This document shows positions 9,020 through 39,992 of a stretch of 64,000 bases of DNA, in pieces. Position 1 is the stretch's first letter, and every line of letters starts with the position of its first letter. Source of the DNA: Schizochytrium sp. TIO01. Its lineage: Eukaryota > Sar > Bigyra > Thraustochytrida > Thraustochytriidae. Both the position numbers and the translations under genes were made by a program. A model generated the notes under the pieces. That model saw nothing but the letters and a program-made list of their open reading frames with translations. It was not told the DNA's origin and searched no databases. The DNA lies in NCBI GenBank assembly GCA_004764695.1, contig SMSO01000025.1:2031102-2095101 (forward strand), given 5' to 3'.

Positions 9020-12000
9020 TTAGGACGACAACTTTTTAACCTTTTCTAAACTCGTGGATTTGCGTGGTTTGCTATTGCTTGAAGCTGATTTATGTTGTGA
9101 CGAACGAGGGATTTTGCTCTGCAACCATGGGTGGTTCAAACATTTCAAAGCCGTTGCTCGAGCAGATGGCTTGAAGATCAACATTTCACGCAAAAACGAC
9201 GAGAATTCTACTGCAGCCTCTTCCGAGAAGTCATATTTTTCCTTCAAGACTTGCTTGAGAGGCCAGTACTTGAGGTTATGAATATGGCGAAGCTGCCCCT
9301 TTCGGGAAAAAAAGCGTTTAGAATGCTTTCCCGATAGAGCAAACTGCTTGGGAATTTCACCCAGAAGTTCGATCATCAAAGCCAAGTGATCCTCGTCACG
9401 CTCATAGGTGCCTCCCGACTTCGGGTCGAACAACAGATCGCCAGTAGCGAGCTCAAAAATGACACAAGCAAGAGACCAGATGTCAGCTGACGTGTCATAC
9501 CCAGCGCCAATGATGACCTCCGGGGCGCGGTACTGCCGAGTCTGGATATCTTCAGAGAAATGCTCGTTTGTCCAGCATGCATTGCCCAAATCAACTACCT
9601 TTACAACGATGTTAGCAGGACGGTTTTCGTCAATACTGGGCGCTTGCAAGCCAACTTCACGAATACCCATCGCAGAAGGCAGCTGTTTGGCACCAAATTT
9701 GCCAGACTTTGGACCAGTACGGCGACCGGAAGCTCCAGAAGCACCACCCGTCCCAATCGCGGTCGTGGAAGCAGCTGCCGCTGCCGCTATAATGGGCGAT
9801 CCTAGTCCGCTGGCAGGACCGATAGATCCATGAGCCTTGTCGCCAAAAGATTGCGTAGAACGTGTGCTCACACTGCGCTGTTTGGATATGGGCTTGTAGC
9901 TCTTGCTACGAGATGCAAGGTTTTCTGAACTGCTCTTGTTGGGATCCTCGTTACCGCTAGCAGGAACTGCCCATGACAGTGGAGCACGGTCACATTTTTC
10001 ATTGTCAATAAGCTCTTGCGCCATCTCCAAGACACACTCGCGCTGATGCGAAGCAGAGCGCGGGTAAGGGGGCACGACGCAAAAGTTGAGCAAGCGATCA
10101 CGCAATGGGCGAAATGCCGAGGCGCGCATGCGCACACCTTTAATATGTCCTGCAAACTCTTGCGGGTTGTCTTCTTGAAAGCTCGAGCGAAAGAGCTGCA
10201 CAAGGACGCGCATGAGTGTAGGATTGCCAATCAGAGCCGCGGGATCCACACCACCTGAAACAATGTCCCCAGCAATGTGCATAGCAAGGTTTTCCTCCAG
10301 TTTGAAGTAATCTGGAAGCGGCGGGCAACAGACAAAAGAAATAGCAAGATCTTGTTTTGCCTCGAGTGCTTCCAAAGTTGACTCCAAGCAGGTTTCGTCG
10401 CAGAGAACATTCCACTCACATGCATGGTGATCCTCTTCCCATTCCATATCAACTTCTGGCCAACCCATAACCGCGAAAGCATGGCGAAGGGTTCCAAAGG
10501 TCAGTTGCGAGACATCGTGTTTGACGGATCCACTTCCACGAACAATCACATAACCGTTATTAACTGCTTTGCCCGTTTTGTTCTCGCACAGAACAAGGTT
10601 CCAACGCGCTAACGACTGTGGATTCTGGTGTTGTCCAGGTCCACTCAGATTATTTGAGGGTATGTTGGTTGGCTTTCCAAAGGCGCGCTCCATAGCTTTA
10701 TAGGATGCCACAAAGCTTACACAACAAAGGTTTTTACCTTCACCGGGGGGGTCCTCATCTTCAAGATCCTCCTCGTTCGCTAGAAAGAAACTGCGGCGTC
10801 GTGAGGTTTTGTTATCTTTTTCATTTGGCGGGGAGAGTAGAAAATTGCCCACGACAAGATGGTCGTACCAATGCCGGATAGGGCTCTCTTCATTCGGGTT
10901 AAGAGCTGGGTGCGTGGCAACCTTGGAGGCAACAGGTGTTGATTTCAATTTCATATCGTTGGCTACAGTTTGTACTACAACTGACTCATGCACAGCGCCA
11001 CCACTGAAGAGCCCGACCCCTCTACCACTACCGTTAAGGTTCAAGGTCTTTAGCGTCGCTGCAACCGCAGAAAGTGGCGAGTTCACTTCGTCTTCTGTTC
11101 CCATACCGTCGAGTGGAGTAGTGGCTTCATCTCCTTGATCTGCGAGTTCACGACGCCGTGCTTTTAGGCGTTTAAGCTTCTTCTTGAGCTTCTTGCGTTC
11201 CTCTGGCTGGAGGGTTCCCTTCACTGCACCAGTGCGCTCGTCCACAGGGTTGGCTGCGAGAGTACGTTCGATATCTTCGATGGTTTCTACCAAATTAAGA
11301 CGAGTGACAGGAGCGGCTTGGGCTCCTGCCCCGCGGTTGGCGTTATCGTCCTCGGTTTCGTCTCCGTCTTCGTCTTGCAGAGTGAGTTGTGCTGCAGACT
11401 TATTGCGACCGTGTTTTTTGTTGGTATCATAGCCAAGGTGTTTAGCTTCACAGGCGCGAGCATAAGCGCGGAGAGCGGGTAAGGAGGGGAGGAGCTCGTC
11501 AATGATCTTCCCGTGAAGGCCTGCGACGAGTACGTTTTCAGGTTTAAGGTCAGTGTGAATGATTTTACACTCTGTATGAAGGTAGTGCAGTGCGACACAC
11601 ATTTGGTATGTAATTTGGCGAACAAGGTCAAGTGGAATGCCTTGATACTTGTAGTGCTTAATAAGGGTAAGGAGGTTGTCACCAAGGACTTCAAAGACCA
11701 TACACATGTGGTTTCCGTTGGGTCCTTTATGTTCAAAGTGATCAAAGAGTTGGACAACAAAAACGTCATCGTTCTGTTTTAGGCCAGTCTCCGGGTCTGT
11801 TGCCCTTTCCGCAACTGTTTTCAACAATTTTATTTCGTCTAGGGCTGCGTCTCTGTAGGACCTCGCTGACTTTTGGACTTTCATCGCTGCGTATCGTTTC
11901 TGCTTTTGGTCATATACGAGCCAAACCGTTGAAAAGTGGCCCCATCCCAGTTTCTCTTCAACTTCGTAGTGCTTGTTGAATATGTCTCCAATCTGCACGC

Positions 12001-14122
12001 GGTGATATCCTCCCACTTTGTACCCTTCGCTACCTTCGTCTTCATCATCCGAGTAGTCTTCATTACTTTGGCCTCCTGTCCCTTCCTCGTCCCCGTCGTC
12101 ATCCTCATCCCCGTTGTCATCGTCGTCATCCTCATCATCAACATCATCTCCTTCGTTATCTTCTTCCTCATCTTCTTCATTGTCTTCTTCTTCTTCTTCT
12201 TCTTCTTCATCGTCGTCGTCGCCAAACCTCTTCGCAGCCAGCAGCGCTTCGGCTTCTCTCCTCGCCGGCATCTTCGCTGCCGCTGCTGCCGCTGCCGCTG
12301 CTGCCGCTTGTTGTCTAACTCCAGCGATGTCTATCCTTTGATTCTGAATCTGGGTTTGCTGTTTTTGTTTTGCAAGTTCTTCTTGCTGTAGTTTCTGCTG
12401 CTGCTCTTGGATCTGCTGCTTCCGCCTCCTTTTCTCCACCAGCCTTTGCTTTTGCTGATCCGCGAGCACCAGTCCTTCTGCTGCAGATCCTTGTCTGAGA
12501 TCTACTTCTGGGTCTTCTCCTCCCTCCACATACGCCCCTGCCTCCAGGAGCCCTTCTGCTTCCTTGGCCCTCCTCTTGCTCCTTCTCTTCTCCTCCTTAT
12601 CCTTCTTCTTACTGCCTCCTGCGCCGCTCTTCCCCTCCTTCAGGTCCCTCTTCCGCGCCTTGTCGACCTTCTCCGTCACGCCTAAGGGCACCCTACCCGA
12701 TACGCTAGCATCCCCACCAGTTAGCCCTCGCGCAGTACCACTCCCTACGCGCCCAGTAGAACTACGGGGTCCTGAGGTCACCCTTCTTAGGCTAGCTCTA
12801 GTGCTATTACCATAAACCGCCGGATCGTTCCCTAGACGTTCCATTTGCTCCAGGAATTCCAGGTGTTCCTCTAGTCCCAGTTCTGCTGCAAGATCTCTTT
12901 CCGCAGCAGAGGCGGTGAGGGCGCGAATGGAGGCCCGTTTGTTGGTGCTGGACTTTGACGCTTGGCGGCGGGAAGCAGCCTCTGGCTTGCTAGACGCCCT
13001 GGCCCCTGGCCTCCTTTGGGTCTGGCGTGCCAGATCAGCTGGGTCGTCGGTTCTAATGAGCAGGTTGTGGGAAAATCCTGTGTTGTGGCCGTCTTCACCC
13101 TCGCTGCTTGTTGGAGACTCTGACGGCGAAGAGGGTACGGACGGGGGTCTTGGCAAGGACTTCGGCTTACTCTTCCGCCTGACTGCCTCTTCTGCGTGTC
13201 TCTCCAGCGATGCCCTTCGCGCCTTGGCGACCGTTGTTCCTTTCGAGGCGCTCGAGGAGATCCTCGGATTCTGCCAGTTCTGCCCAAGATGGTCTTCACG
13301 CGCTGCCGACACTACTCGACCTGACTTGCGTCTCAACGCTCGAGCTTGAGCGATGTGATGCTCCTCTTCGTAGGTACCTCCTTCGCCTTCGCTCTCTGAG
13401 AGCCCCACGTGAGCGTCGTTGGTCTCAAAGTCCCCATGGCGGCGCCGTGAGTTGGGCACCGCGGACATGCGCCTCAAGGCAACGCCGCCAGCAGCGCTGG
13501 CGGTGGGCGGCACTTGAGCGTTGGAAGAAAAGGCAGCGGAGGACGACGTCAAACGAAGCGAACGCCTTTGTGCCGCTGCTTCTGCCACGGACATGGTAGC
13601 CCTGGCGGTGTCTGTGTCTGTATTGAAGGATTTCGAACTTGAACCCGGGTAAAATGCAGTGCTCATGCCGTTCGCTCCGTTGCTGCCAGCAGACCAAGAG
13701 AGCCTGGACCCTGGCTTGGCGGCATCAAGGCTCGGCCTTCGCCCTGATGAACGTCCCGACACCTTCCTACGTGCTGCAGCAGCAGTAGGGTCGGTGGCGA
13801 TTTCGATGTCGGAGCCCACGGTAGGCTCGCCATGGTTGCTGTCGAAAGGCTGGTGCTGGTCTTGCTCCAGGTGGCGGCGTGGGGCGCTCTTGCGACGCTG
13901 CTGAGCCTCGAGCTTGGCAGCTTTTCCCGCGCTGCTGCGAGGGCGGAAGTGCTCCACAAGGCTTTGCCACGGGCCGCGCTGCGCCGATTTCGAGGCTGAT
14001 TTACTCGAAGAGGGTGTCGCAGAAGAGGAGGCCGCCGCGGAAGAAGGGGCTGGACGCGAGGAGCTACGCAAGGCGCCATGCTCCGCGGCCGGGACTTCCG
14101 TGGTGCGGCGGCTCGCACGCAT
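9020..14122 (-). CDS. SRPK: SRPK-type serine/threonine (SR-protein) kinase with very large N-terminal extension and inserted spacer, 1700 aa
   Basis: This is a member of the SR-protein kinase family, which phosphorylates Arg-Ser-rich splicing factors. Residues 1-700 are low-complexity: Ser/Arg/Lys-rich, a poly-Ala run and a long Glu/Asp tract. The kinase N-lobe starts near 715 (KLGWGHFSTVWLVYD; ATP-site Lys in AAMKVQK). The catalytic loop is HTDLKPEN (about 856). The kinase is then interrupted by a spacer of about 630 residues and resumes at about 1511 with DLGNACW, the SRPK form of DFG. It continues with the APE motif in RQYRAPEVIIG, the DIWSLACVIFELATGDLLF segment and NHPWL near the end. 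All key residues are present, so it should be active. Much of the spacer (about 1150-1420) looks like a folded domain. The frame is open 43 codons upstream without an ATG; the chosen ATG context is ACAACAATG. Confidence 0.9.
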   Translation of the reverse strand: MRASRRTTEVPAAEHGALRSSSRPAPSSAAASSSATPSSSKSASKSAQRGPWQSLVEHFRPRSSAGKAAKLEAQQRRKSAPRRHLEQDQHQPFDSNHGEPTVGSDIEIATDPTAAAARRKVSGRSSGRRPSLDAAKPGSRLSWSAGSNGANGMSTAFYPGSSSKSFNTDTDTARATMSVAEAAAQRRSLRLTSSSAAFSSNAQVPPTASAAGGVALRRMSAVPNSRRRHGDFETNDAHVGLSESEGEGGTYEEEHHIAQARALRRKSGRVVSAAREDHLGQNWQNPRISSSASKGTTVAKARRASLERHAEEAVRRKSKPKSLPRPPSVPSSPSESPTSSEGEDGHNTGFSHNLLIRTDDPADLARQTQRRPGARASSKPEAASRRQASKSSTNKRASIRALTASAAERDLAAELGLEEHLEFLEQMERLGNDPAVYGNSTRASLRRVTSGPRSSTGRVGSGTARGLTGGDASVSGRVPLGVTEKVDKARKRDLKEGKSGAGGSKKKDKEEKRRSKRRAKEAEGLLEAGAYVEGGEDPEVDLRQGSAAEGLVLADQQKQRLVEKRRRKQQIQEQQQKLQQEELAKQKQQTQIQNQRIDIAGVRQQAAAAAAAAAAAKMPARREAEALLAAKRFGDDDDEEEEEEEEDNEEDEEEDNEGDDVDDEDDDDDNGDEDDDGDEEGTGGQSNEDYSDDEDEGSEGYKVGGYHRVQIGDIFNKHYEVEEKLGWGHFSTVWLVYDQKQKRYAAMKVQKSARSYRDAALDEIKLLKTVAERATDPETGLKQNDDVFVVQLFDHFEHKGPNGNHMCMVFEVLGDNLLTLIKHYKYQGIPLDLVRQITYQMCVALHYLHTECKIIHTDLKPENVLVAGLHGKIIDELLPSLPALRAYARACEAKHLGYDTNKKHGRNKSAAQLTLQDEDGDETEDDNANRGAGAQAAPVTRLNLVETIEDIERTLAANPVDERTGAVKGTLQPEERKKLKKKLKRLKARRRELADQGDEATTPLDGMGTEDEVNSPLSAVAATLKTLNLNGSGRGVGLFSGGAVHESVVVQTVANDMKLKSTPVASKVATHPALNPNEESPIRHWYDHLVVGNFLLSPPNEKDNKTSRRRSFFLANEEDLEDEDPPGEGKNLCCVSFVASYKAMERAFGKPTNIPSNNLSGPGQHQNPQSLARWNLVLCENKTGKAVNNGYVIVRGSGSVKHDVSQLTFGTLRHAFAVMGWPEVDMEWEEDHHACEWNVLCDETCLESTLEALEAKQDLAISFVCCPPLPDYFKLEENLAMHIAGDIVSGGVDPAALIGNPTLMRVLVQLFRSSFQEDNPQEFAGHIKGVRMRASAFRPLRDRLLNFCVVPPYPRSASHQRECVLEMAQELIDNEKCDRAPLSWAVPASGNEDPNKSSSENLASRSKSYKPISKQRSVSTRSTQSFGDKAHGSIGPASGLGSPIIAAAAAASTTAIGTGGASGASGRRTGPKSGKFGAKQLPSAMGIREVGLQAPSIDENRPANIVVKVVDLGNACWTNEHFSEDIQTRQYRAPEVIIGAGYDTSADIWSLACVIFELATGDLLFDPKSGGTYERDEDHLALMIELLGEIPKQFALSGKHSKRFFSRKGQLRHIHNLKYWPLKQVLKEKYDFSEEAAVEFSSFLREMLIFKPSARATALKCLNHPWLQSKIPRSSQHKSASSNSKPRKSTSLEKVKKLSS

Positions 14123-14586
14123 TGTTGTCGTTGCTGCCGCCGCTAAGTGCTCAGGCGAGCGAGCTAGCGAACGAGCGAGCGAAGTCTGACTTTGACTTTG
14201 ACTTTGACTATTTCTCTTCTTCTTTTCACTTCCTTTGCTTTTTCTTTTCACTTTCTTTTGTTTTTGTTTCTGTTTCTCATAATTGAAGAGGTGTTTTTAT
14301 CAGATAAGTCATTTCGTTTCAATCGCAGGATATGTTGTTGCTCATTGCTGTTTTGCCCACAGAAAATAAGCTGTACAGGTGTTTGCATGGAGGTGACGGA
14401 AGAGATGCTTTAAAGGCCGCGCTCATTCAAGAGCAATACCAGCATGGTGTATACTAGCTTACGCTTTTTGTTGTGTTTGTTTTGTTCTGTTTCATATTTA
14501 GTTTGTTCTGTTCTGTTTCATCTTCTTTACTTTATTTTCAATTGAATTACATTTTTGTGGGTTTACTTTGCGAATGCAGTGTGGCG
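14123..14586. other. 5' upstream region of the kinase gene
   Basis: This contains TGACTT hexamer repeats (about 14187-14208) just upstream of the kinase ATG and pyrimidine-rich runs to about 14280. On the kinase's sense strand the repeats read AAGTCA. They may lie in the 5' leader or promoter; no function can be assigned. Confidence 0.35.
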
Positions 14587-22759: not shown

Positions 22760-24268
22760 ATGGTTGCTCAGAGGCTGCATAGACAATGTCAAGGATCATT
22801 AATAGCACTATGTCTGCTTGCAAGCATCTTTCACACGGTGCAAGCCTCAGTAGACATTTTGGTGCCAATTGATGGAGTCATGACCCAAGTTGAAATTCTA
22901 GAGAAAACCCTTCCTTACAGTCCTTTTTTTGGTATTCGCTCGAATAAAACCTGGACACCAACAAGGATTTCTTTGCCTGTAACTTTTGTTGACGATCAGG
23001 TTATGGCCGACATTTGTGATACTTTTGCAAATGGCTCCGTGCCAGATTTCTCTGGACAACTGCTCTATGTTGATGATAATGTTGATTACATGTGCAGTGG
23101 CGTCTGGGGTACATACGCCAACTACAAGCATATACAAAATTGGTGCTTGATGAATGGCACTATTGTGTTCTCTGGAGATTCTAACTTAGCATTCCTTGCA
23201 CAGCCAGGCGACTTTTTTGAATCTATCCTTGAAGGAGATGCCGGGAGTGCTGTAAAAACCTGCTTTTGGATTTTTGGCTATAATACGTATACATCCCAGG
23301 CGTCTCAAGCTCTTCAGCTCACGCAAAACGCATCTGGAACATATTTGGCTAATATTACCATGGATTGGTCCCGGCAAATGGACACAATTGAACCATTTGC
23401 AATGGTGGTAATTCTTCCTATATTAGGTGTGATGTTCTTATATATATCGGGCCACGGAGTTGAGGTCTTACTACACCGCATCCGCGATAGTCAACAACTC
23501 CTGATCGAACATGTTTTGATTCTTGTTATCAATATCGTGGTTCTTTTCACAATCGGTATAATTCGCTTTGTGACACCTTTCAGAACTCTAAGCATGGGGC
23601 TCTATTTATTTACCTATCAGGATTTTTATTTGCTTGGGACGTCAACATCCTTCCTTCTTGCGACCATATATATGAATGCAGTGAATCAACTACAGAACAT
23701 GCACTCTAGAAATCCAAAGAGAAGGCGAATCATTGGATTTCTCTGTTTCGTTTTAGTAATCTGTGAATTTGTCTCTGATATTGGCTATACAAGAATGAAT
23801 ACTGGCAGTACAAATATAATAATCAGCCTTATCGCTTTGCTTATGATAGCGTTACAGATCATAGCTATTGTTGTTTTATGGGTCAAGACGATACAGACTG
23901 CAAATCTCTTAAAACATATGCAAATCTCAACACATAACCGAAGTGGTAAAATCATGCAACGGTTAGAGCTTCATCTTCGTTTATGGGTCCGTATTTCTGT
24001 AGTTGCTGCCACCATGGCAACTTTAATATTGATTATGGTAATGCTAGGATTCTATTCGTCTGATTACCATGCTCTCAGAACCGTTTTTGATGTGGGTCGC
24101 GCAATCGGCGCATTAGCAGAAATTCAGGCCTGTCGATCACTTCGTGAACGAAAGTCTAAACGACATCGTGACATTATAGAAACTCTAAAGAATTCCAGTA
24201 CTGCGAGTCACGTACACCCAACAACCTCTCAATCCATGTCAAGTGCTTTGCACGCTCCTATTAAATGA
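22760..24268 (+). CDS. Receptor-like seven-helix membrane protein, paralogue A, 502 aa
   Basis: A signal peptide (residues 1-29, core LIALCLLASIFHTVQA) is followed by an ectodomain of about 190 residues with conserved Cys and several N-glycosylation sites (NKT, NGS, NGT, NAS, NIT). The C-terminal part has about seven hydrophobic helices. Clear ones are near 218-237, 252-272, 285-305, 324-344, 352-378 and 413-434; the seventh, near 442-460, is weak. A basic tail follows (RERKSKRHRD). Ectodomain motifs VDYMCSGVWGT and ITMDW are shared with the next gene. The architecture resembles a G-protein-coupled receptor with an extracellular binding domain, but I recognise no GPCR family motif, so receptor function is inference. 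It is intronless, starts at the first ATG, and is in tandem with paralogue B 1.1 kb downstream. Confidence 0.8.
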   Translation: MVAQRLHRQCQGSLIALCLLASIFHTVQASVDILVPIDGVMTQVEILEKTLPYSPFFGIRSNKTWTPTRISLPVTFVDDQVMADICDTFANGSVPDFSGQLLYVDDNVDYMCSGVWGTYANYKHIQNWCLMNGTIVFSGDSNLAFLAQPGDFFESILEGDAGSAVKTCFWIFGYNTYTSQASQALQLTQNASGTYLANITMDWSRQMDTIEPFAMVVILPILGVMFLYISGHGVEVLLHRIRDSQQLLIEHVLILVINIVVLFTIGIIRFVTPFRTLSMGLYLFTYQDFYLLGTSTSFLLATIYMNAVNQLQNMHSRNPKRRRIIGFLCFVLVICEFVSDIGYTRMNTGSTNIIISLIALLMIALQIIAIVVLWVKTIQTANLLKHMQISTHNRSGKIMQRLELHLRLWVRISVVAATMATLILIMVMLGFYSSDYHALRTVFDVGRAIGALAEIQACRSLRERKSKRHRDIIETLKNSSTASHVHPTTSQSMSSALHAPIK

Positions 24269-25372
24269 GATACTAGTACTTCTATTTCTATTATTGATTT
24301 TATATTTGCAAAATGCACCTTATAGATATAGTTATGATTTTTGCTGGGGTCCTTGATCGCCGTCTGTTTGCGTGGTTTCATCGGCTCTAAGAAAGTTATA
24401 GTATACTTCAAAGTCGAAGATTCGTCAAAATACGCCGTATCACTTCATTAGAACTAAAAGAGAATAAAAGAGCATTCAAAATGGGTAAACAAAAACATTC
24501 TATTTAGCCAACTAGGTGCACTTTCTAAAAGATGCACTTTGTTATGTTCTTGTTTTTCTCCCACGAGAGGGGGGAAATGGACACTTCACAGGTTTGGAGT
24601 CCCGTTTAGTACGCGCATTATGTGTGATTTAAACCACTTAAGCAGAGTTATGTGTACCTGTGAACCAGGTACCAGTATCCTCTGATAGACTGAATTTCTG
24701 CATCTCCCATGTTATATTCGAGCTAAATACACAAATAACTACGTAGCTTTAGTTAACTTCATTACATCCAGAGGGGATAATAGCAGCATGATGAGCCAAT
24801 ACCACAGCAAAGACGTACATAGTATAAGTCCGTCCAAGATACAACGTTTTTGCAAGAGTAAATAGCTCTTATATGTACTTCTGTTCAACAATTAAGTTCC
24901 ACATGCAATCAATCGGGTGAACCCTTTGGCTATATTCTAACTGGTCATGTGTGCAGTCTTCCATGTTTCCGACTGTTGGAGAGCCGTTGCTAGAACCACT
25001 TAAAAATGTTAATTAAAAATTAAAAATTTAAATTATTCGTAAGCCTGCATAATGGAGTTTAGCAAGAATTGGATCCCCATCTTTATAATTTACGAGTGCT
25101 TTAATACATCTTTAAATCATTAATTTTGACTTTATACATATTTTATATCTGTTCATATATTCCTAAATAAAATAAAAGTAAGGCATTCTTTTTTTTTTTT
25201 AAATCCCAGGTAGGCCATATATAGATGAGCAAACCCAAACGGAACCTAAAACCTCAAAGGTCTTTGCTATTCATCTAGTATTTAAAAAATAAAAATAAGA
25301 GATAATATTTTAAAATGATACTTACTCAATGCAATTGCTAGGTATAGCTGCTTAGGCTTCATAATACTAGTG
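24269..25372. other. 1.1 kb intergenic region between the two receptor-like genes
   Basis: This is A/T-rich, with long A and T runs around 25000-25320. I see no third coding copy and no convincing similarity to the upstream region of the other paralogue. Confidence 0.5.
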
Positions 25373-27085
25373 ATGAAAGGCCATAAGGAAGGTCACAAGA
25401 AAGGTCACAACCAGTTCAACAACGATGTGCCAACAAACCCTGCGTGTACAGCAACGATGATGTCGTTGGAAATCCTTTTCTGTTTATTATGCTATGCCGT
25501 GTGGCTACAGGGGTGTGGGGCAGAACTTGTGCTCTCCTTCCCACGACAAGATATGAATAATTCTCAATGGTCTGTTGTAATAGATGATACTCCACCAAAC
25601 AATATGTTTTTCGGCGTGCAACCCACTCAAACATATGAGCCAAGTCGTTCCATGCAGCTTGCTACGCTTATTGATGCTGAAAATCTAGAAAACTTTTGCG
25701 AGATGATGACACAGGAAACTCCACCGAACCTCTTTGGTCAAATGCTCATTATCACAGAGGGAATTGACTTTATGTGTAGTGGACGTATCGGAACAATGAT
25801 TAACCTTGACTTTTATCATGGGTGGTGTAGCTTAAATGCGACGCTACTTCGTTATGGGACCTTTGGCAATGAGCTTGATTATGGTGGCGGTCCATATTTT
25901 CGAAATCCTGACAAGATCTTACAAGATTGTTTTTATGTCTTTGCAACAAATCAAAACCAACCAGAAGAGGTTACTGAAATGATGCAATTTATAAAATACA
26001 ACCCTGTCTATGTATATGCCAATATCTCAATGAATTGGACGGATGAACTCATTAAGCCAGGCGATATGTTGACTCGTGCAAACCATGTAACGATTGGGAT
26101 ATTTTTCTTTCAAAGCTTTTTATTAGGCGTCAAGGCGCTAAATGAACGCTTAAGATCTGGCAAACATACTCAAGTGGAGCAGTTTATCATTTTATTGGTG
26201 AATATTATCACATCGATTACTCTTAGCATCTGCCGGGCTGTCCTTCCGTTTCGAATTACTAGTTCGGTAGTTTTCTTCTGGACATATAGGAACTTTATGT
26301 TCTGGGGCTCAACAACTTCTTTTCTGCTTATAAGTGTGTACGCAGAAGCTTCGTGTACATTGAGCGGAAACCCAGACTACAAAAGACGCTTGAAACTCTT
26401 GCGTTCAGTATTCATGCTTCTAGCGGCATCATGTATCATACTAGAACTAGGCAACATTTATGCGAACACTTATTATAACACTGGAAACTACTATAAGCTT
26501 AACAAACTTGGTGTAGCTGGTGCCTGGATGCAAGTCATTTCAGTATGCATTCTGTGGGTATATTCAATTAGAACTGCAAATATTATTCGTTTCGTGCGCA
26601 AAACATCTGGAGCAAAGGCGACCTCACGTAGTCAAAAAGCCCTACGACTTGTGGAGCGCAAACTACGTTTCTGGATTCACCTTTCGGTATTTGCTGCTGT
26701 GATGTCTTTGGTTTGTTCGCTGCTCACAAGCTTGGGGGTCCAAAATATTTCCCATCTTATAGATCAACTTTTGAGATTCTCATTTGATCTGTCGAAATGG
26801 ATGTGCCTTACAGCAGAAATTAACGCGTGTAGGCCATCGGTTGAGAAACCATCTACGAGAACGTTTCCTTGGTGTTGGAGATTTTTCTTGCGACTCAGTC
26901 CCTTGTCGAGTTCTACAATTTATGTTCAGAGATCTAGTGAGGGTCTCAATGCGAGCAACTCGCACGATAGGTTTTCGGAGCAGAACTCCACAACATTAAA
27001 AACTACAGTAGCGCGTTACTCCACCAAAAGAGCTTCAATAGAAAACTACTATATTCGTTCAATACAGAACAACAATATTAATTAA
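25373..27085 (+). CDS. Receptor-like seven-helix membrane protein, paralogue B, 570 aa
   Basis: This is a paralogue of the preceding gene. Shared ectodomain positions include FFGV, GQMLIITEGIDFMCSGRIGT, GWCSLNAT, DCFYVFA and YANISMNW. The hydrophobic helices are in the same order, from about 237 to the region near residue 475. Loop motifs also match: LPFR after the second helix, and RTANI after the fifth (QTANL in A). The N-terminus carries a His/Lys-rich stretch (MKGHKEGHKKGHN) before the signal-like core (EILFCLLCYAVWLQGCGA). An ATG at 25457, directly before that core, would give a more ordinary signal peptide and is a credible alternative start. The tail is Ser/Thr-rich and about 70 residues longer than in A. 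Ligand and partners are unknown. Confidence 0.8.
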   Translation: MKGHKEGHKKGHNQFNNDVPTNPACTATMMSLEILFCLLCYAVWLQGCGAELVLSFPRQDMNNSQWSVVIDDTPPNNMFFGVQPTQTYEPSRSMQLATLIDAENLENFCEMMTQETPPNLFGQMLIITEGIDFMCSGRIGTMINLDFYHGWCSLNATLLRYGTFGNELDYGGGPYFRNPDKILQDCFYVFATNQNQPEEVTEMMQFIKYNPVYVYANISMNWTDELIKPGDMLTRANHVTIGIFFFQSFLLGVKALNERLRSGKHTQVEQFIILLVNIITSITLSICRAVLPFRITSSVVFFWTYRNFMFWGSTTSFLLISVYAEASCTLSGNPDYKRRLKLLRSVFMLLAASCIILELGNIYANTYYNTGNYYKLNKLGVAGAWMQVISVCILWVYSIRTANIIRFVRKTSGAKATSRSQKALRLVERKLRFWIHLSVFAAVMSLVCSLLTSLGVQNISHLIDQLLRFSFDLSKWMCLTAEINACRPSVEKPSTRTFPWCWRFFLRLSPLSSSTIYVQRSSEGLNASNSHDRFSEQNSTTLKTTVARYSTKRASIENYYIRSIQNNNIN

Positions 27086-29797: not shown

Positions 29798-31279
29798 ATG
29801 TCGAACATTCTCAAGCTTGTCCGAGTTGACACTCTGTCTCCGGAGGTCTTCCAGACCCTTGTAGACATAGAGCAGTCAAGCTATCCTCAAGATGAGGCCG
29901 CAAGCCCCGAGGCCATGGCCAAGCGCCGAGACCTAGCCCCTGAGCTGTTCCACGTTGCTCTCAACACGCAAGATAACTCCGTTTATAGCTTCGTCAATGG
30001 CACATGCACTGACAAAGACGAACTGTCACACGAAACCATGTCAACTCATGTTGCAGGAGGCCAAACATTGTGCATTCACTCTGTAGTTACTCGCGAAGAT
30101 CTACGCCGACAAGGTCTTGCCAGAGCCACTCTGCGTCATTATCTGGATCGGATCGTTTCTAGCCCTGAGACGGCTCACGTGAAGCAAGCTCTGCTCCTGG
30201 CCAAGGAAAATCTGGTGCCATTTTACGAGTCATGCGGATTCCGCAGCCGTGGCGCATCCAAGGTGGAGCACGGCCAGGACACTTGGTACGAGCTTGGTGT
30301 TTCGTTGCGCGAGATTCCGATCGCGTGTGCAAACGCGTTCAACAACCCTGACAAGGCGTTCAGTGGCAATCCTGCAGCGGTCTGTGTACTTCCGTTCAAG
30401 ACTCGTTCGCTTGATGACACTGCACAGAAGTGGACTTTTGATGAAGGCGAGAAAGGTATTGTGACGATGGAGGATGGGTGTGAGACGTTTATGCGCGCTG
30501 TAGCTGCTCAGATGAACCTGAGCGAGACGGCGTTTCTACGCGATCTTGGTGCGGGCAGTGATGACGGTAGTGTGCATCGTTTCGAGTTGCGTTGGAAGAC
30601 TCCTACAGGTGAGGTGGATCTTTGTGGACATGCTACTCAGGCTTCTGCGTTTTCTCTATGGAGTGCAGAGTCGGGTTTGCTTCCTCGTGGTATGTTGGAC
30701 AATGTGACAACTTTGGAGTTTGAGACTCGCAGTGGTATCCTTCGTGCCCAACGAGAGGAGTCGGGAGCTGTTGTCTTGGACTTTCCTTTGGAAACAATCT
30801 CAGAAGATCTTCCCACGACTGACCCAGTTCGTGGTGAACTTATCCAAGCTCTTCGTGTAGACCCTTCGCAAGTTTTATTTGTTGGGAGAAATCGCATGGA
30901 CCTTGTAATTGAGCTCAGGGTCCGTGAGGCAGTACTAGAATGTGCACCAGATATGGTTGCGCTGGCGAAGATTAAGACTCGTGGAGCATGTATCACTGCA
31001 AAAGAACATTCTGGATCTTCCCAAGATTTTGTTTCTCGCTTTTTCGGGCCAGCTGCTGGAATTACAGAAGACCCTTTTACTGGTAGTGCGCACTGCTATC
31101 TTGGTCCATATTGGGGATCGAAGTTGTCAAGTGACCAACTTACGGGTCTGCAACTATCTAACCGTACTGGAGTGACGCAAGTTAGTGTTAAAAAGAGCGA
31201 ATCGCGTGTCTCTCTTCAAGGTATTGCCGAGGTATCTTGGAGCGGTAGAATGCATTCTGGGCCATTTCAGCAATCCTAA
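29798..31279 (+). CDS. GNAT (AANAT-like) acetyltransferase / PhzF-family fusion, copy 1, 493 aa
   Basis: Residues 1-165 form a GNAT N-acetyltransferase. LCIHSVVTREDLRRQGLA contains the acetyl-CoA motif A (RRQGLA), and FYESCGFRSRG is the end of motif B. The 'CIHSVV' strand resembles arylalkylamine N-acetyltransferases. Residues 170-490 form a PhzF-family domain (AFSGNPAAVC start) with all three expected active-site positions: Glu243 in NLSETAF, His278 in CGHATQ and Asp425 in EDPFTGSAH. PhzF proteins catalyse isomerisation of dihydro-hydroxyanthranilate in bacteria; eukaryotic homologues are mostly of unknown substrate. The fusion suggests acetylation and isomerisation of a related amine or amino-acid-derived compound, which is inference. 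It is first of three tandem copies. Its first ~310 codons are almost identical to copies 2 and 3, and the rest diverges. Confidence 0.88.
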   Translation: MSNILKLVRVDTLSPEVFQTLVDIEQSSYPQDEAASPEAMAKRRDLAPELFHVALNTQDNSVYSFVNGTCTDKDELSHETMSTHVAGGQTLCIHSVVTREDLRRQGLARATLRHYLDRIVSSPETAHVKQALLLAKENLVPFYESCGFRSRGASKVEHGQDTWYELGVSLREIPIACANAFNNPDKAFSGNPAAVCVLPFKTRSLDDTAQKWTFDEGEKGIVTMEDGCETFMRAVAAQMNLSETAFLRDLGAGSDDGSVHRFELRWKTPTGEVDLCGHATQASAFSLWSAESGLLPRGMLDNVTTLEFETRSGILRAQREESGAVVLDFPLETISEDLPTTDPVRGELIQALRVDPSQVLFVGRNRMDLVIELRVREAVLECAPDMVALAKIKTRGACITAKEHSGSSQDFVSRFFGPAAGITEDPFTGSAHCYLGPYWGSKLSSDQLTGLQLSNRTGVTQVSVKKSESRVSLQGIAEVSWSGRMHSGPFQQS

Positions 31280-31861
31280 ATATATATATTATAACACATT
31301 TGCTTATTCTTTCCCATGCATCATCATGTATGAAATGGAACCTTGTCAAAAGATTCCCCTGCACATTCTCATATTCCAAGCTGTTTTCAAATGCAAGTCA
31401 TGGGGTTGTCTTTGCTACTACACACATTTAAAAGGAATCGCAAATATATTCAGAGGCTGTAGTCTTAGTAACCCGTTTGCTTAGGTAGCAACTCAGGTTA
31501 ATGCATACTTCACGGTCCTTTAATAGTATGATTATCCTCATATTATTAACGATTATTGTGCCTTGAGTTATTATGAACGTCACATCGTTTAGAGGAGTCA
31601 CTATCGCTTCTTACCAGTGACAGCAAATGAATAATTGTTTTGGCCAGAGTTTTTAACCTTGAAGTAAACAAATTATGTGCTAATTCCTGCTTACTAGTTT
31701 AACTAGATAAGTAGTATTAGGAAACTAATTTTTTTGAAGTTTCCTAATTTTTTGAACTAATCACAAGGCTTCCTCCGATGAATTCGCAGAAACTACAAGC
31801 AAAGTAAAGCACAAAATGAAACTGCATGTGATCTAGCTCTAAGCTTAATTTTGTATCAACT
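31280..31861. other. 582-base spacer between fusion copies 1 and 2
   Basis: This spacer is A/T-rich. It does not visibly repeat the region upstream of copy 1 or copy 3, although the coding sequences are near-identical from their first codons. No gene is seen. Confidence 0.45.
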
Positions 31862-33334
31862 ATGCTCAAGCTTGTTCGAGTTGACACTCTGTCTCCGGAG
31901 GTCTTCCAGACCCTTGTTGACATAGAGCAGTCAAGCTATCCTCAAGATGAGGCCGCTAGCCCCGAGGCCATGGCCAAGCGCCGAGACCTAGCCCCTGAGC
32001 TGTTCCACGTTGCTCTCAGCACGCAAGATAACTCCGTTTATAGCTTCGTCAATGGCACATGCACTGACAAAGACGAACTGTCACACGAAACCATGTCAAC
32101 TCATGTTGCAGGAGGCCAAACATTGTGCATTCACTCTGTAGTTACTCGCGAAGATCTACGCCGACAAGGTCTTGCCAGAGCCACTCTGCGTCATTATCTG
32201 GATCGGATCGTTTCTAGCCCTGAGACGGCTCACGTGAAGCAAGCTCTGCTCTTGGCCAAGGAAAATCTGGTGCCATTTTACGAGTCATGCGGATTCCGCA
32301 GCCGTGGCGCATCCAAGGTGGAGCACGGCCAGGACACTTGGTACGAGCTTGGTGTTTCGTTGCGCGAGATTCCGATCGCGTGTGCAAACGCGTTCAACAA
32401 CCCTGACAAGGCGTTCAGTGGCAATCCTGCAGCGGTCTGTGTACTTCCGTTCAAGACTCGTTCGCTTGATGACACTGCACAGAAGTGGACTTTTGATGAA
32501 GGCGAGAAAGGTATTGTGACGATGGAGGATGGGTGTGAGACGTTTATGCGCGCTGTAGCTGCTCAGATGAACCTGAGCGAGACGGCGTTTCTACGCGATC
32601 TTGGTGCGGGCAGTGATGACGGTAGTGTGCATCGTTTCGAGCTGCGTTGGAAGACTCCTGCAATTGAAGTGGACCTTTGTGGACATGCTACTCAGGCTTC
32701 TGCGTTTTCTCTATGGAGTGCAGAGTCGGGTTTGCTTCCTCGTGGTATGTTGGACAATGTGACAACTTTGGAGTTTGAGACTCGCAGTGGTATTCTCCGT
32801 GCTTCAAGAGACGAAAAAGGAAATGTGAGTCTGGATTTTCCCCTAGAATCTGTGTCAGAAGACTTGTATAGAACAGATCCAAGCCGCGAACTTCTCATTA
32901 AAGGTCTTAAAGTTGACCCCGAGGATGTCGTTTTTGTTGGAAAAAATCGGTTACACATGCTGATTGAGCTTGCTTCGAGCGACCTAGTGAGAGAGTGCGA
33001 TCCTGACATGTCTATCTTAGCGCAAGCAGAAAGGCTTGGCGTATGCATAACCGCAAAATACACTCACAGTCAGAAATATAACATTGCATCAAGGCTTTTT
33101 GCTCCTGCTAAAGGTATTCTGGAGGATCCTTTCACAGGTAGTGCTCATTGTTATCTAGGCCCTTACTGGATGAAGAAACTAGGTACTGATGAAATAGTTG
33201 CTTTGCAAATGTCCTCTCGCACTGGAGTTGCTAAGGTAAACGTGAAAGTCAAGGAACATCGTGTCTTACTAAAAGGAATGTCTGAGATCTCATGGACTGG
33301 TAGTCTAAAGTCTGCACCTTTTCAGCTCTCTTAG
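31862..33334 (+). CDS. GNAT (AANAT-like) / PhzF-family fusion, copy 2, 490 aa
   Basis: The domain order matches copy 1, with the same acetyl-CoA motif (RRQGLA) and the three PhzF positions kept (NLSET Glu, CGHAT His, EDPFTGSAH Asp). From about codon 315 the protein departs from the other two copies, for example ASRDEKGNVSLDFPLESVSE and later ASRLFAPAKGILEDPFTG. It is the most divergent copy there. It has a private change, PAIEVDLCGHA instead of P-A/T-GEVDLCGHA, next to the active-site His; the Gly-to-Ile change might affect the substrate pocket. It starts two residues before the shared LKLVRVDTLS block. It is presumably expressed and active, since no break is seen. Confidence 0.88.
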   Translation: MLKLVRVDTLSPEVFQTLVDIEQSSYPQDEAASPEAMAKRRDLAPELFHVALSTQDNSVYSFVNGTCTDKDELSHETMSTHVAGGQTLCIHSVVTREDLRRQGLARATLRHYLDRIVSSPETAHVKQALLLAKENLVPFYESCGFRSRGASKVEHGQDTWYELGVSLREIPIACANAFNNPDKAFSGNPAAVCVLPFKTRSLDDTAQKWTFDEGEKGIVTMEDGCETFMRAVAAQMNLSETAFLRDLGAGSDDGSVHRFELRWKTPAIEVDLCGHATQASAFSLWSAESGLLPRGMLDNVTTLEFETRSGILRASRDEKGNVSLDFPLESVSEDLYRTDPSRELLIKGLKVDPEDVVFVGKNRLHMLIELASSDLVRECDPDMSILAQAERLGVCITAKYTHSQKYNIASRLFAPAKGILEDPFTGSAHCYLGPYWMKKLGTDEIVALQMSSRTGVAKVNVKVKEHRVLLKGMSEISWTGSLKSAPFQLS

Positions 33335-34627
33335 AATTAAAGCCCATCTAAAGGGCTCTTGATGTGGCAGGTTTTTCAGTGGACCAAGGATTGCATAAAT
33401 TTAAGGCTTGTGGCACAAATGTCGTCGTGAAACGTTATGTTTTTGTTATGAATTTCCTCAAGAGGTTAAAAAATTAAACTATTTGAAGATTTTCGTTGTT
33501 GATAATTGCTCCTATCGCGAATGTAGCTAAAACACTAAGCATCTGTTCACTCTCTATTTCTCTTCTTTGTAGATTCTGAGTGACACATTCTCATCATACA
33601 TAAGTAGACTGCGCGGTGAGCACCGGCTCTTGTTGTCGATTGTTTCTTTAAAGTCTTGTTAGGACATTCTCGTCAAGACAAACTACCCAATCATCCTCGC
33701 AATCCAAGAACTCGATTCTCTGCTCAGCAAGGTCAGAGTGTTCTCCTGCGCCGTCAAACAGATGTAGAGTGACCCTTACCATCATTTTCCAAATTTCTTA
33801 CTAAGTCCACCTCCCTTCTACCAAAATTGCTTATTTCACAGCAACATTTTGAGCATTGTTCCACTCTGAAGCCAACCCATGCAATACCTCATCAGTCCCA
33901 CTGTCACACAGACTCCAATTCTTCAGGTTTGATTTCTTGTAAGTCGAAGCAACTGTTGACTTCAAGCAACTGAATGTTTGCTCGTACAGATAATCGGGCC
34001 CAGAAAAACTATTTTCAATATTGATGGAGAGAAAAGCCAATTTTTGAGGTTTGAAGTATCGCATTAGCAAGCTCCCTCTTGAAGTCGAATACAACGATGA
34101 TGATCTGGAAACGCAACCGCACAGCCGATTCCAGACCCGTTGTCATACCTCAAGCGCAACTGCCTGGAGGTACTCTCCTGATGCAAAGCTGATAAGGCTG
34201 CAGGAAATCGCAGCTGAGCCTACTATACTGCCAGCAATACTATGATCAGCGAATTGCAATGCAATGCAGGGATAGCATCTTCCTAGGAACTAGTAGCTAG
34301 TAGCAGCCTGAGGGAAGATTAAGGGCATTGTTCCTGGAATATGAAATAGGGACACACCGTGTAATTCTTTCTCTTGTACACAACGAAAGATGAACCCAAG
34401 AAAGTTGGATCCCAAATCGTAACTCGTTTAGCGGCGATAGTTCTGGTAGTGCCTAGGTATTACCTACCTACTTACCTAGGTAGGCCGTAGACTCACGGTA
34501 GTACGAGCACAAGTGCTACAAAGAGACTGCGAGCAAGATTGCAACTGCAGCAACAATTTCTTCTAAGATTGCAAGATTGGCCGAGAGCAAACCTGTATTC
34601 CCATTTCAGACGCTGCCAGAAGGAAGC
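33335..34627. other. 1.3 kb region between fusion copies 2 and 3
   Basis: On the minus strand, around 34240-33831, short frames have a loosely leucine-rich-repeat-like look (for example LKNWSLCDSGTDEVLHGLA), but frame changes and stops interrupt them and they have no shared start. They may be a decayed gene fragment. A strong palindromic cluster, CCTAGGTATTACCTACC and following, lies at about 34452-34484, some 145 bases upstream of the copy 3 ATG. No intact gene. Confidence 0.4.
34452..34484. repeat. Palindromic CCTAGGTA/TACCTAGG cluster upstream of fusion copy 3
   Basis: Two CCTAGGTA-type palindromes flank a TACCTACCTA direct repeat, so the whole stretch is nearly self-complementary. It is the densest copy of the motif dispersed between genes here. 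Its position in the presumed promoter of copy 3 is suggestive, but no function is shown. Confidence 0.6.
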
Positions 34628-36106
34628 ATGGGCGTCATAAAGCTCGTCCGAGTTGATACTCTGTCTCCAGAGGTCTTCCAGACCCTTGTTGACATAGAGC
34701 AGTCAAGCTATCCTCAAGATGAGGCCGCTAGCCCCGAGGCCATGGCCAAGCGCCGAGACCTAGCCCCTGAGCTGTTCCACGTTGCTCTCAGCACGCAAGA
34801 TAACTCCGTTTATAGCTTCGTCAATGGCACATGCACTGACAAAGACGAACTGTCACACGAAACCATGTCAACTCATGTTGCAGGAGGCCAAACATTGTGC
34901 ATTCACTCTGTAGTTACTCGCGAAGATCTACGCCGACAAGGTCTTGCCAGAGCCACTCTGCGTCATTATCTGGATCGGATCGTTTCTAGCCCTGAGACGG
35001 CTCACGTGAAGCAAGCTCTGCTCCTGGCCAAGGAAAATCTGGTGCCATTTTACGAGTCATGCGGATTCCGCAGCCGTGGCGCATCCAAGGTGGAGCACGG
35101 CCAGGACACTTGGTACGAGCTTGGTGTTTCGTTGCGCGAGATTCCGATCGCGTGTGCAAACGCGTTCAACAACCCTGACAAGGCGTTCAGTGGCAATCCT
35201 GCAGCGGTCTGTGTACTTCCGTTCAAGACTCGTTCGCTTGATGACACTGCACAGAAGTGGACTTTTGATGAAGGCGAGAAAGGTATTGTGACGATGGAGG
35301 ATGGGTGTGAGACGTTTATGCGCGCTGTAGCTGCTCAGATGAACCTGAGCGAGACGGCGTTTCTACGCGATCTTGGTGCGGGCAGTGATGACGGTAGTGT
35401 GCATCGTTTCGAGTTGCGTTGGAAGACTCCTGCAGGTGAAGTGGACCTTTGTGGACATGCTACTCAGGCTTCTGCGTTTTCTCTATGGAGTGCAGAGTCG
35501 GGTTTGCTTCCTCGTGGTATGTTGGACAATGTGACAACTTTGGAATTTGAAACGAAGAGTGGTATCCTTCGTGCCCAACGAGAGGAGTCGGGAGCTGTTG
35601 TCTTGGACTTTCCTTTGGAAACAATCTCAGAAGACCTCCCTGTAACTGATGCCAACCGTGAAATGGTAATCAAGGGCCTTCGCATTGATCCATCACGTGT
35701 TGTGTTCGTAGGCATGAACCGTATGGACATTGTTGTGGAGGTTGACTCACGTGATGTTGTACTCAATGCTGTTCCGGATATGGCACTGTTGGCACAAATT
35801 AAAGTACGTGCGATTAGTCTTATGTCAAAAGAAGACGATGAGCGTCCACATGACATCACTTCACGTCTCTTTGCTCCTGCGGAGGGCGTCCCTGAAGATC
35901 CGTTTTGTGGAAGCGCGCATTGCTATCTCGGTCCATACTGGATGGACAAGCTTGGTAAGGCAGAGATGACCGGTCTGATGCTTTCTAATCGTACTGGTGT
36001 AACAAAGCTGACAGTTCAAAGCGAGAAAAAGCGTGTGCTGCTTCAAGGTGTCGCTGAGGTTTCTTGGACCGGAAAGATGCACTCGGGTCCATTTCAACAG
36101 CACTAG
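34628..36106 (+). CDS. GNAT (AANAT-like) / PhzF-family fusion, copy 3, 492 aa
   Basis: The catalytic framework matches copies 1 and 2, with EDPFCGSAH replacing EDPFTGSAH (Thr to Cys next to the active-site Asp). The frame is open 17 codons further upstream but only from a TTG, so the start is set at the ATG of MGVIKLVRVD. After codon ~310 the gene is a mosaic. A short private block (TKSGI in place of TRSGI, with different codons) is followed by about 75 bases identical to copy 1 (AQREESGAVVLDFPLETISE), and then unique sequence to the end. The copy-specific part is richer in G and C than that of copy 2. Product and substrate are as uncertain as for copy 1. Confidence 0.88.
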   Translation: MGVIKLVRVDTLSPEVFQTLVDIEQSSYPQDEAASPEAMAKRRDLAPELFHVALSTQDNSVYSFVNGTCTDKDELSHETMSTHVAGGQTLCIHSVVTREDLRRQGLARATLRHYLDRIVSSPETAHVKQALLLAKENLVPFYESCGFRSRGASKVEHGQDTWYELGVSLREIPIACANAFNNPDKAFSGNPAAVCVLPFKTRSLDDTAQKWTFDEGEKGIVTMEDGCETFMRAVAAQMNLSETAFLRDLGAGSDDGSVHRFELRWKTPAGEVDLCGHATQASAFSLWSAESGLLPRGMLDNVTTLEFETKSGILRAQREESGAVVLDFPLETISEDLPVTDANREMVIKGLRIDPSRVVFVGMNRMDIVVEVDSRDVVLNAVPDMALLAQIKVRAISLMSKEDDERPHDITSRLFAPAEGVPEDPFCGSAHCYLGPYWMDKLGKAEMTGLMLSNRTGVTKLTVQSEKKRVLLQGVAEVSWTGKMHSGPFQQH

Positions 36107-37313: not shown

Positions 37314-37782
37314 CCCCAAGTTTCAATTGCTGGAATTGTAGTTCTGAGCACTACTATATATCCCCTTCAACGTTTTTTCAACGTTGTGAGTTCTAGTAAA
37401 ACTAATAGGTAAATACTACCTAGCACTATTTTTGGGTCACTTAGACTTTGTATGTTTTGTGATATTTTCATCAGCAGAAAATCTTAGTTTTCCAAAATAT
37501 CGTCCCGTGTCGTTTACGCAAAATAGAGGCTCATTATCATGTCCGATGTAGTTTAGTTTGAACATACATAGACCCGAATGCGCTCTCTCACTATTTAGGC
37601 AGTTCCTCGCAATGCTTTTATTCACGAAATCAAAGTAAAGCCGTAACTTGAAGAAAGAGAGGCGCGTGCAGGCACTATGGAAGAGCGGTAGACACGTGGA
37701 CGTGTCTTCATCATCTCAGCTCGATGTTCTCACAGTTTGTTTGAAAGAGACAGGTAAAAATCGTTTTATCTCCCTCTTAGTG

Positions 37783-37818
<36 letters not shown>

Positions 37819-39992
37819 TGTATGTATGTATGTATGTATGTATGTATGTATGTATGTATGTATGTATGTATGTATGTATGTATGTATGTATGTATGTATT
37901 ATTAATTATAAAAACTCAACATGACTTGCTTGCAAAAGCATCCGAGGCCTTTGTAGGGATGACTCTTTTTTTCAATCACAACAGAGTTAGCGGTCACATT
38001 AATATCTACCTAAGTATGTATTACTGAGTGAAAGAAAATAAGCAAATAAACAATCACAACTGTTTGATATCTCTCCTACAACTATCACTGGCGTCAGCTC
38101 TTTCTGCTTGTGTAACTATCTACATTTTCTACACAAACGATTGCTAATTACGGTCAATTTTTAACATTAGATGCTTTGAGTGAACTTCTAATAAAGAAAT
38201 GTATCTGCATTGTTTTGCTAGAGGATGTGTTTTCTGGTTGCTTTTTCAGTGCGACTCTTTCCAGTATCTGGCTGAACAGAGGTGCGTTGGACTTATAGGT
38301 ACGGATTCTCGTTCCCATTCTTGATTCTGTTTGCTTTGGGCCCAGCTCCAGCGATTCCACAACTCACTTACTGTACCTTCTCTGGTTGTTTGTTGTTGCT
38401 GCTGCTGCTGCAAAAATACGCCTCCTCTGTTCTTTAATCTGCTCGCTGGGTAACTTTGCGCGCTGCCAATATTTCATGCCCACCGCAGGATAGAATCAAC
38501 AACATAATCAGCTGTTATGGAATCTCAAGGTCTTTAAAACGGACACTGAGTCCTGAGCAGCGGCTGTACGTGTTTATTCGCAGTTTCGTTGCCAATAATT
38601 CTGCTTTCGCAATGATTGCATCACAACCTGATATGACTTTTCACAAAAGCTCCTCTGACTAGTGCGAGTGCAGTTATCGCCCCTCTACTACGAGCGCTGT
38701 CATGCTATCTACCCTCACTCAAGCTGTGACGAGCCATGAGTGACTCGCCACTTCTGCTTCCTGTTCCCTCCATTTGGAATATTTAGGCACTCCCGCATAG
38801 AAATCTGTCCAAATCTCCTTCAAATAGACATCAAACAGCTTTTTTACACCAAGGATGTCCCAAAGCCAGCTTCGCAGACCCCGTGCGCCCAAGCTGTTTT
38901 CCCTTTCCCAGCAAACCAGCTAGTTATCTTCGCCGTGGACAGCTTGCGCTCCCTAATCTAGCTCAAGCATCACCCTTTGTTCGCTAATTATGCCACCAAG
39001 ATCCACCCCAGCGCCGTGTCCTTTATCTCTGCACAGCCCCCTCGGCCACAAAGGAAGCCGCCTCGACCGCTTTTAGCCCGAGTTCTCTCCTGTAGCGCAT
39101 CCCTGGATTAGTCATTCCACCCGACAAAGGGCCAGAGCACTCCGGCTCTAAGTGTCTTGTTTGTTGACTCTGGCACGGCAGTCGCCGATATCAAAGGCTT
39201 CACGAGCGTGCTTCAGCTATTTTGGAGCGAATGCAAGGTGCGTTTTATACCTTGAAACGATATTATAAAGTATCTTCTTTCATAATTATTTTTAGTATTA
39301 TTAAATAAATTAAAAGGTTAAACATTTTATTTAGGAGAAAGTATCATTTAATATGATCGTTTTTTCTTTTCTTGTCTTTGTTTTTTGAAGTAGGACATGA
39401 AAACTTGAGAAATCGTGAATATGATCTTGGAGACCAGGACCTTGGAGTCGAAGGAGAAGAAGTAGTATTAGTAGAAGAGGACGATGATGAGATCACAGGC
39501 CTCACAGTAGTGGACAACGCAAGGCAAGAGCTCAAGCCGGGACTGTATTGAATCTTTACGTAATGCAGCAAGTGTACACCCGCTCGGAATTCAGGCGGCG
39601 AGCGGCGGATGGCGTCGGGCAGTTAGCTTTCACAAGCGTCACAAAAGAATTTTCATTTCTCCTTCAACTTTTGGTCAAATAGATCGTTCATAAATTATGC
39701 ATCGCAGATCTTCGAGGCAGAACCTACGATGAGCAAGGTTGCAAAGCAGCTTTCGGTGTCCGTTCTCTTGCTGTAAAATACTTGGACGTTGAAAGCCTTT
39801 TGAGTGGCCAAGGCCTCAGCAAAAAATCGAGATCCACAATTACATTTTCGATTTTCAATTAAAATTAATTCATAAGAACTGTTCGGAATCAATCACAGTT
39901 CCGAATCCTCATCTTAACCAAACTCCAAACTCCAAACTCGAATCCTCAAACTGGTCTTAGGCGAGTTCCTATAGTCTCGTTCCGCTCAGACG
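37314..39992. other. 2.7 kb stretch without a recognisable gene
   Basis: This contains the long TATG microsatellite and a CTG/TGC run at about 38395-38411. Short direct repeats of AAACTCC (about 39922-39940) sit in the presumed PGK leader. Minus-strand frames near 39344-39892 lack ATG starts. No gene is seen. Confidence 0.5.
37791..37899. repeat. (TATG)n microsatellite, about 27 units
   Basis: A pure TATG/TGTA tract of about 109 bases, preceded by TATATATA. It is the only long microsatellite in the left 46 kb. The reverse-complement family (CATA) recurs at about 61.25 kb. Confidence 0.97.

Follow-up and report, generated by a model that had tools for sequence, protein, structure and literature searches.

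Three tandem GNAT–PhzF fusion genes in a thraustochytrid: near-identical 5' parts probably maintained by gene conversion, and an anciently diverged second lobe

Known systems and the array

Both the fusion of a GNAT acetyltransferase with a PhzF domain and partial gene conversion within tandem arrays are already documented. The PifHAT3 family, present in oomycetes and one diatom, combines an AT_1 acetyltransferase domain with a C-terminal PhzC-PhzF domain (PMC5112689), and in Trypanosoma brucei 21 of 47 tandem arrays contain chimaeric copies ascribed to putative partial gene conversion (PMC1855330). In UGT1-type clusters (PMC1885805) related enzymes combine a constant part with differing variable ones, and PhzF-family proteins of known structure, such as 1s7j from E. 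faecalis and 4dun from C. difficile, have about 260 residues and are devoid of an acetyltransferase. In the available text of the open-licence papers on GNAT–PhzF fusions, the role of these proteins is putative, being derived from domains and expression data, and we found no tested activity; nor did we find, in the open-licence papers searched, a fusion of this kind and partial conversion combined at one locus.

The locus considered here lies in a 64-kb stretch of Schizochytrium sp. TIO01 DNA (the window), in which the ORF finder identified three intact GNAT–PhzF fusion genes in direct repeat, as the preliminary description had reported (A, B and C; Table 1). The ORF of gene C as found extends from 34577 to 36106 and opens at TTG, with the first ATG at 34628. 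In all three proteins, Pfam matches to GNAT families (at about 1e-5 to 1e-4) are N-terminal and the match to PF02567 is C-terminal, the latter with scores of 146.8–154.6 bits against a cut-off of 27. NCBIfam also assigns the proteins to the PhzF family, and they have the diaminopimelate-epimerase-like two-lobe fold of PF02567. Among solved structures, serotonin/arylalkylamine N-acetyltransferases come closest to the first 178 residues of A, and residues 59–171, corresponding to the acetyl-CoA and catalytic region, match arylalkylamine N-acetyltransferase with an E-value of 2.4e-11 (phmmer); for the rest of A, the nearest solved structures are PhzF proteins. In an alignment read by eye, Cys92, His94 and Tyr143 of A appear to stand opposite the catalytic His120, His122 and Tyr168 of arylalkylamine N-acetyltransferase, in which case two of the three residues would be kept.

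The order of the domains is the same as in PifHAT3, acetyltransferase followed by PF02567, and the distribution of that family in oomycetes and a diatom agrees with the stramenopile source of the array (PMC5112689). PifHAT3 was called a putative histone acetyltransferase on the basis of its domains, whereas the nearest solved relatives of the proteins described here are serotonin/arylalkylamine N-acetyltransferases; furthermore, that paper presents no tandem conversion array, the word "tandem" being absent from its main text (PMC5112689). The T. brucei arrays are similar in that their tandem copies are chimaeric, in part homogenised and in part diverged, but those arrays are transcribed as polycistrons and belong to another lineage (PMC1855330); here the dividing line leaves a domain and one lobe on one side and the enzyme's remaining lobe on the other. 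Unlike UGT1, where multiple variable first exons are found at one locus (PMC1885805), the array consists of three complete genes whose 5' parts stay alike, and the variable part is at the 3' end.

Table 1. Positions in the window of the three genes, their homogenised and diverged parts, and individual sites
Feature	Positions	Strand	Basis or remark
Gene A, GNAT–PhzF fusion, 493 aa	29798..31279	+	ORF; PF02567 1.9e-44 and GNAT families (Pfam)
Gene B, GNAT–PhzF fusion, 490 aa	31862..33334	+	ORF; PF02567 4.9e-45
Gene C, GNAT–PhzF fusion, 492 aa from ATG	34628..36106	+	ORF; PF02567 1.2e-42
Homogenised core of A, codons 52–322 (the greater part of the GNAT domain and of PhzF lobe 1)	29903..30715	+	dS 0.010–0.021
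Homogenised core of B	31958..32770	+	Silent-divergence comparison
Homogenised core of C	34730..35542	+	Silent-divergence comparison
Tract common to A and C only, codons 328–352, A copy	30731..30805	+	77-nt identical run
Tract common to A and C only, C copy	35558..35632	+	Identical run, shuffles
Lobe 2 of A, diverged (codons 356–509, plus the stop codon)	30815..31279	+	pS 0.79–0.87, pN 0.28–0.32 between copies
Diverged end of B, from codon 330	32792..33334	+	Silent-divergence comparison
Diverged lobe 2 of C	35642..36106	+	Silent-divergence comparison
Codon of Cys276 (A) in DLCGHAT, lobe 1, identical in all three copies	30623..30625	+	Profile comparison
Cys in EDPFCGSA of C	35906..35908	+	Thr in A (31079–31081) and B (33134–33136)

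The genome assembly, made up of 37 contigs, totals 64.06 Mb; the window is located more than 2 Mb into its contig. A six-frame search of the genome with PF02567 yielded three places, namely A, B and C, and searches with the core DNA and with the whole of protein A gave three matches each; these searches score the best candidates only, with introns ignored and exons not joined, and within that scope no further match to the core or to PhzF that might represent an outside donor was found. A scan of the 64-kb window detected no tRNA genes. The array is adjoined by two tandem paralogues (window 22760-24268 and 25370-27085) that by eye resemble membrane proteins; this pair, which provides a local contrast, shares 28% protein identity over 440 aligned positions and is not homogenised. 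Beyond the array lies a long (GTAT)n microsatellite (window 37780-37905), which the ORF finder listed as a repetitive reading frame, and on the minus strand at 9020-14251 there is an open frame of 1743 aa in which kinase-like motifs can be recognized by eye amid long low-complexity stretches.

The silent-site step and its edges

The three genes were compared in one codon alignment, with columns numbered on the 509-residue ORF of C. Over the core, codons 52–322, the synonymous differences amount to 4.0 at 191.8 sites for A–B, 2.0 at 192.0 for A–C and 2.0 at 191.8 for B–C, whereas over codons 356–509 pS is saturated (0.804, 0.788 and 0.872 for the same pairs) and pN reaches 0.315, 0.283 and 0.304. 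The longest identical runs of the pairs, 389, 640 and 389 nt, were each reached in none of 5000 column shuffles. Thus the preliminary description, which had counted about a dozen differences in some 940 bases followed by a 3' part strongly diverged in both DNA and protein, was accurate on both points (A and B differ by 12 nucleotides over alignment codons 20–329), and the gradual rise in synonymous divergence that it named as contrary evidence was not found, the change being a step. Two of its details require modification. The near-identity, said to begin at the first codons, holds in the core, but codons 20–51 are already of intermediate divergence (pS 0.13–0.30) and the 5' edge has no sharp start. 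The 3' boundary, placed at a single codon, is a genuine step, which in the structure model falls where the first PhzF lobe ends or slightly ahead of that point, but its place depends on the pair: B departs at codon 330, and A and C part at codon 353.

Around this edge the copies form a mosaic. C differs from both A and B at codons 323–327, yet is identical to A at codons 328–352, and the 71-nt part of this A–C tract that falls within codons 330–509 has a length attained in none of 10000 nucleotide shuffles and none of 10000 codon shuffles. The core itself contains silent and replacement differences specific to individual copies; of its eight variable positions, six fall in a single 33-nt window (columns ~280–290), an arrangement found in none of 20000 random placements. 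We read these islands and edges as older sequence probably left between the tracts of several events. At alignment codon 287, just before EVDLCGH, B has Ile (ATT), and A and C have Gly (GGT). As Ile is the commoner residue among bacteria (40 of 49, selected by pattern), B may hold the older state here in an unconverted island. Outside the genes, the claim that upstream and intergenic DNA is unrelated was borne out: in all 12 pairwise upstream and downstream comparisons the real score lay within the shuffle range, being matched by at least 7 of 60 shuffles, and no flank homology was found.

Phylogenetic trees were built separately for the two lobes from A, B, C and 49 bacterial relatives (100 columns for lobe 1, 143 for lobe 2). 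In the lobe-1 tree the three copies form one clade (100/100, with the bootstrap not fully settled) and the inner branches do not exceed 0.009. They also form one clade in the lobe-2 tree (100/99), with end branches of 0.29 for A, 0.55 for B and 0.36 for C. Pairwise distances between copies are about 0.77–0.96 changes per site in lobe 2 versus less than 0.02 in lobe 1. The single deep clade of lobe 2, together with the near-identity of lobe 1, indicates that the second lobes descend from one old gene and that the first lobes were made alike later.

Taken together, the silent step, the mosaic islands, the unrelated flanks and the single old lobe-2 clade argue for gene conversion confined to one segment, as had been proposed, and against a fresh duplication; we regard repeated conversion among three old tandem paralogues as highly probable. 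The 5' two-thirds, that is, the arylalkylamine-N-acetyltransferase-like domain and PhzF lobe 1, would have been overwritten recently and more than once, and the second lobe would have escaped conversion and continued to diverge under constraint; in that lobe pN is about 0.3 with pS about 0.8, and the frames are open. Conversion would proceed where identity suffices for pairing and halt where the copies have drifted too far apart, in which case the boundary would maintain itself. This is the simplest account of the boundary, for which selection is not needed. The core GC3 is 0.524 in each copy versus 0.331, 0.364 and 0.429 in the three ends (Fisher p 0.0002, 0.0017 and 0.07, from rounded counts), but as a sign of GC-biased conversion this is only a hint because the cores are not independent, GC3 falls along the gene and 11 other measured ORFs span 0.38–0.60.

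The second lobe and the active site

The array would represent a clean natural example of conversion and divergence within one gene: the fused domain and one lobe are held common, and the lobe that completes the active site can vary. Since one part is nearly the same in all three proteins, whatever the second lobe contributes could be read almost without confounding, and the locus may be of use in working out the role of GNAT–PhzF fusions.

Residues E243, H278, D425 and S430 of A occupy the positions of the PhzF catalytic residues Glu (E45), His74, Asp208 and Ser213 (PMC5524880), a pairing made by motif and not by residue-level superposition. The four are equal in B and C, and the same Glu/His/Asp/Ser set is shared by all 49 aligned bacteria. 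The second lobe, previously described as the variable one, is diverged overall, yet it retains the catalytic Asp and the motif EDPF(T/C)GSAHCYLGPYW in all three copies. Of the 33 sites in lobe 2 at which 90% or more of the 49 aligned bacteria agree, A keeps 31, B 27 and C 26; in this lobe A is nearer to the bacterial PhzF consensus than B or C.

On the basis of these residues, the three enzymes might have cofactor use and the first half-site in common but not the second half-site, which would give them different substrates or reactions, with A as the conservative copy. A difference in substrate is plausible, with chances that we put at about even; the functional split is drawn from residue changes only, the main catalytic residues being equal in all three. 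The chief alternative accepts the conversion but holds that the enzymes are functionally equivalent, serving dosage, and that the lobe-2 differences are near-neutral drift. The unchanged catalytic Glu, His and Asp and Gly-Ser turn in all three copies are consistent with it, as is a pN below pS, but B and C are altered, and A mostly is not, at several sites that 94–100% of the 49 aligned bacteria retain; we rate equivalence as a serious possibility, somewhat short of an even chance. The notion of one conserved half-site combined with different other halves is thus upheld only in part: the boundary near the end of lobe 1 and the departures of B and C at residues conserved in bacteria fit it, whereas the identity of the main catalytic residues and a pN below the saturated pS do not.

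One difference between the copies lies within the conserved motif, where C has Cys in place of Thr (Table 1); among the 80 bacterial relatives the site is Thr in 77, Cys in one and unread in two. Racemases use a Cys/Cys pair, dehydratases carry Thr for the second Cys, and Ser in such places has been described with activity retained (PMC4113996); PhzF enzymes have Glu instead of the Cys/Cys pair (PMC5958127). In lobe 1, a profile comparison gives some support (E 2e-4 for that pair, probability 46.5%) to matching Cys276 with the Cys that three proline-racemase relatives have in MCGHG. In the structure model this residue and the lobe-2 Thr/Cys both stand directly before a helix (277–288 and 429–443), and the cysteines of diaminopimelate epimerase sit on helices (PMC8142540); by symmetry, the lobe-2 Thr/Cys would be the counterpart of the second epimerase Cys. 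The attempt to identify the Thr-to-Cys change of C with the second catalytic Cys of DapF or proline racemase by profile comparison failed, with a probability of 2.3% with DapF; for lobe 2 alone the values were 0.4% with DapF (one residue out, read by eye) and, against relatives of proline racemase, 0.04%. The model is of poor quality over the GNAT half, where pLDDT is mostly under 50 because only three near-identical rows cover that part.

A more far-reaching proposal is that the array functions as a "half-site library", in which conversion, favoured by selection, would hold the acetyltransferase and the Cys-bearing first half-site alike in all copies, and the second half-sites, with Thr, Thr and Cys, would be protected. 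A single locus would then yield isomerase- or dehydratase-like enzymes along with a two-cysteine, epimerase-like enzyme, all with the same acetyltransferase. That selection keeps the shared half for this reason is possible, but we consider the proposal as a whole unlikely.

Other origins of the near-identity, and relatives elsewhere

Apart from repeated conversion, the near-identity of the 5' parts could stem from a recent tandem duplication of an entire unit, the 3' thirds of which then diverged fast or were replaced. The closeness of the copies and their direct repeat are what such an event would leave, but the upstream DNA of a fresh duplicate would be diverged by about 1%, and the flanks have no detectable homology; the 3' thirds, in turn, are saturated at silent sites and form one old clade. 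A recent duplication is accordingly very improbable. We likewise give little credence to an assembly or polishing artefact in which one 5' block was copied to three loci via mis-assigned reads: near-identity over 800 nt can indeed draw mis-mapped reads, but the core has its own silent and replacement differences in each copy, arranged in a complex mosaic, and long reads probably span each 1.5-kb gene, given the small number of contigs and the position of the window deep inside one of them. Selection that acts on the 5' part as DNA or RNA, through an overlapping gene or a structured or regulatory RNA that keeps silent sites without conversion, is the most improbable of all, as the antisense ORFs that exist bring it no support (those above 110 aa run across the boundary to the diverged part and do not fill the core), and constraint would not be expected to leave 271 codons almost wholly identical at silent sites, with ends that are abrupt and differ from pair to pair.

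A bacterial origin of the fusion was explored with 80 PhzF loci kept of 418, with flanks of up to 2.5 kb (shorter at contig ends). A tblastn search of these loci with the GNAT part, at E up to 1, gave no match in 79; none of the 80 showed a fusion, and within that scope a bacterial origin was rejected. The one weak match (L063:5278-5466, minus strand; 30% over 70 residues, E 0.097) is GNAT-like, lies away from PhzF and is probably due to chance. None of 122 matching plasmid records covers 80% of the query; the bacterial and plasmid results say nothing of eukaryotes. With search patterns taken from A or from stretches common to the three near-identical proteins, a first scan of genome contigs and two scans of viral contigs returned no relative, and a later scan of viral contigs returned one PhzF relative (L096).
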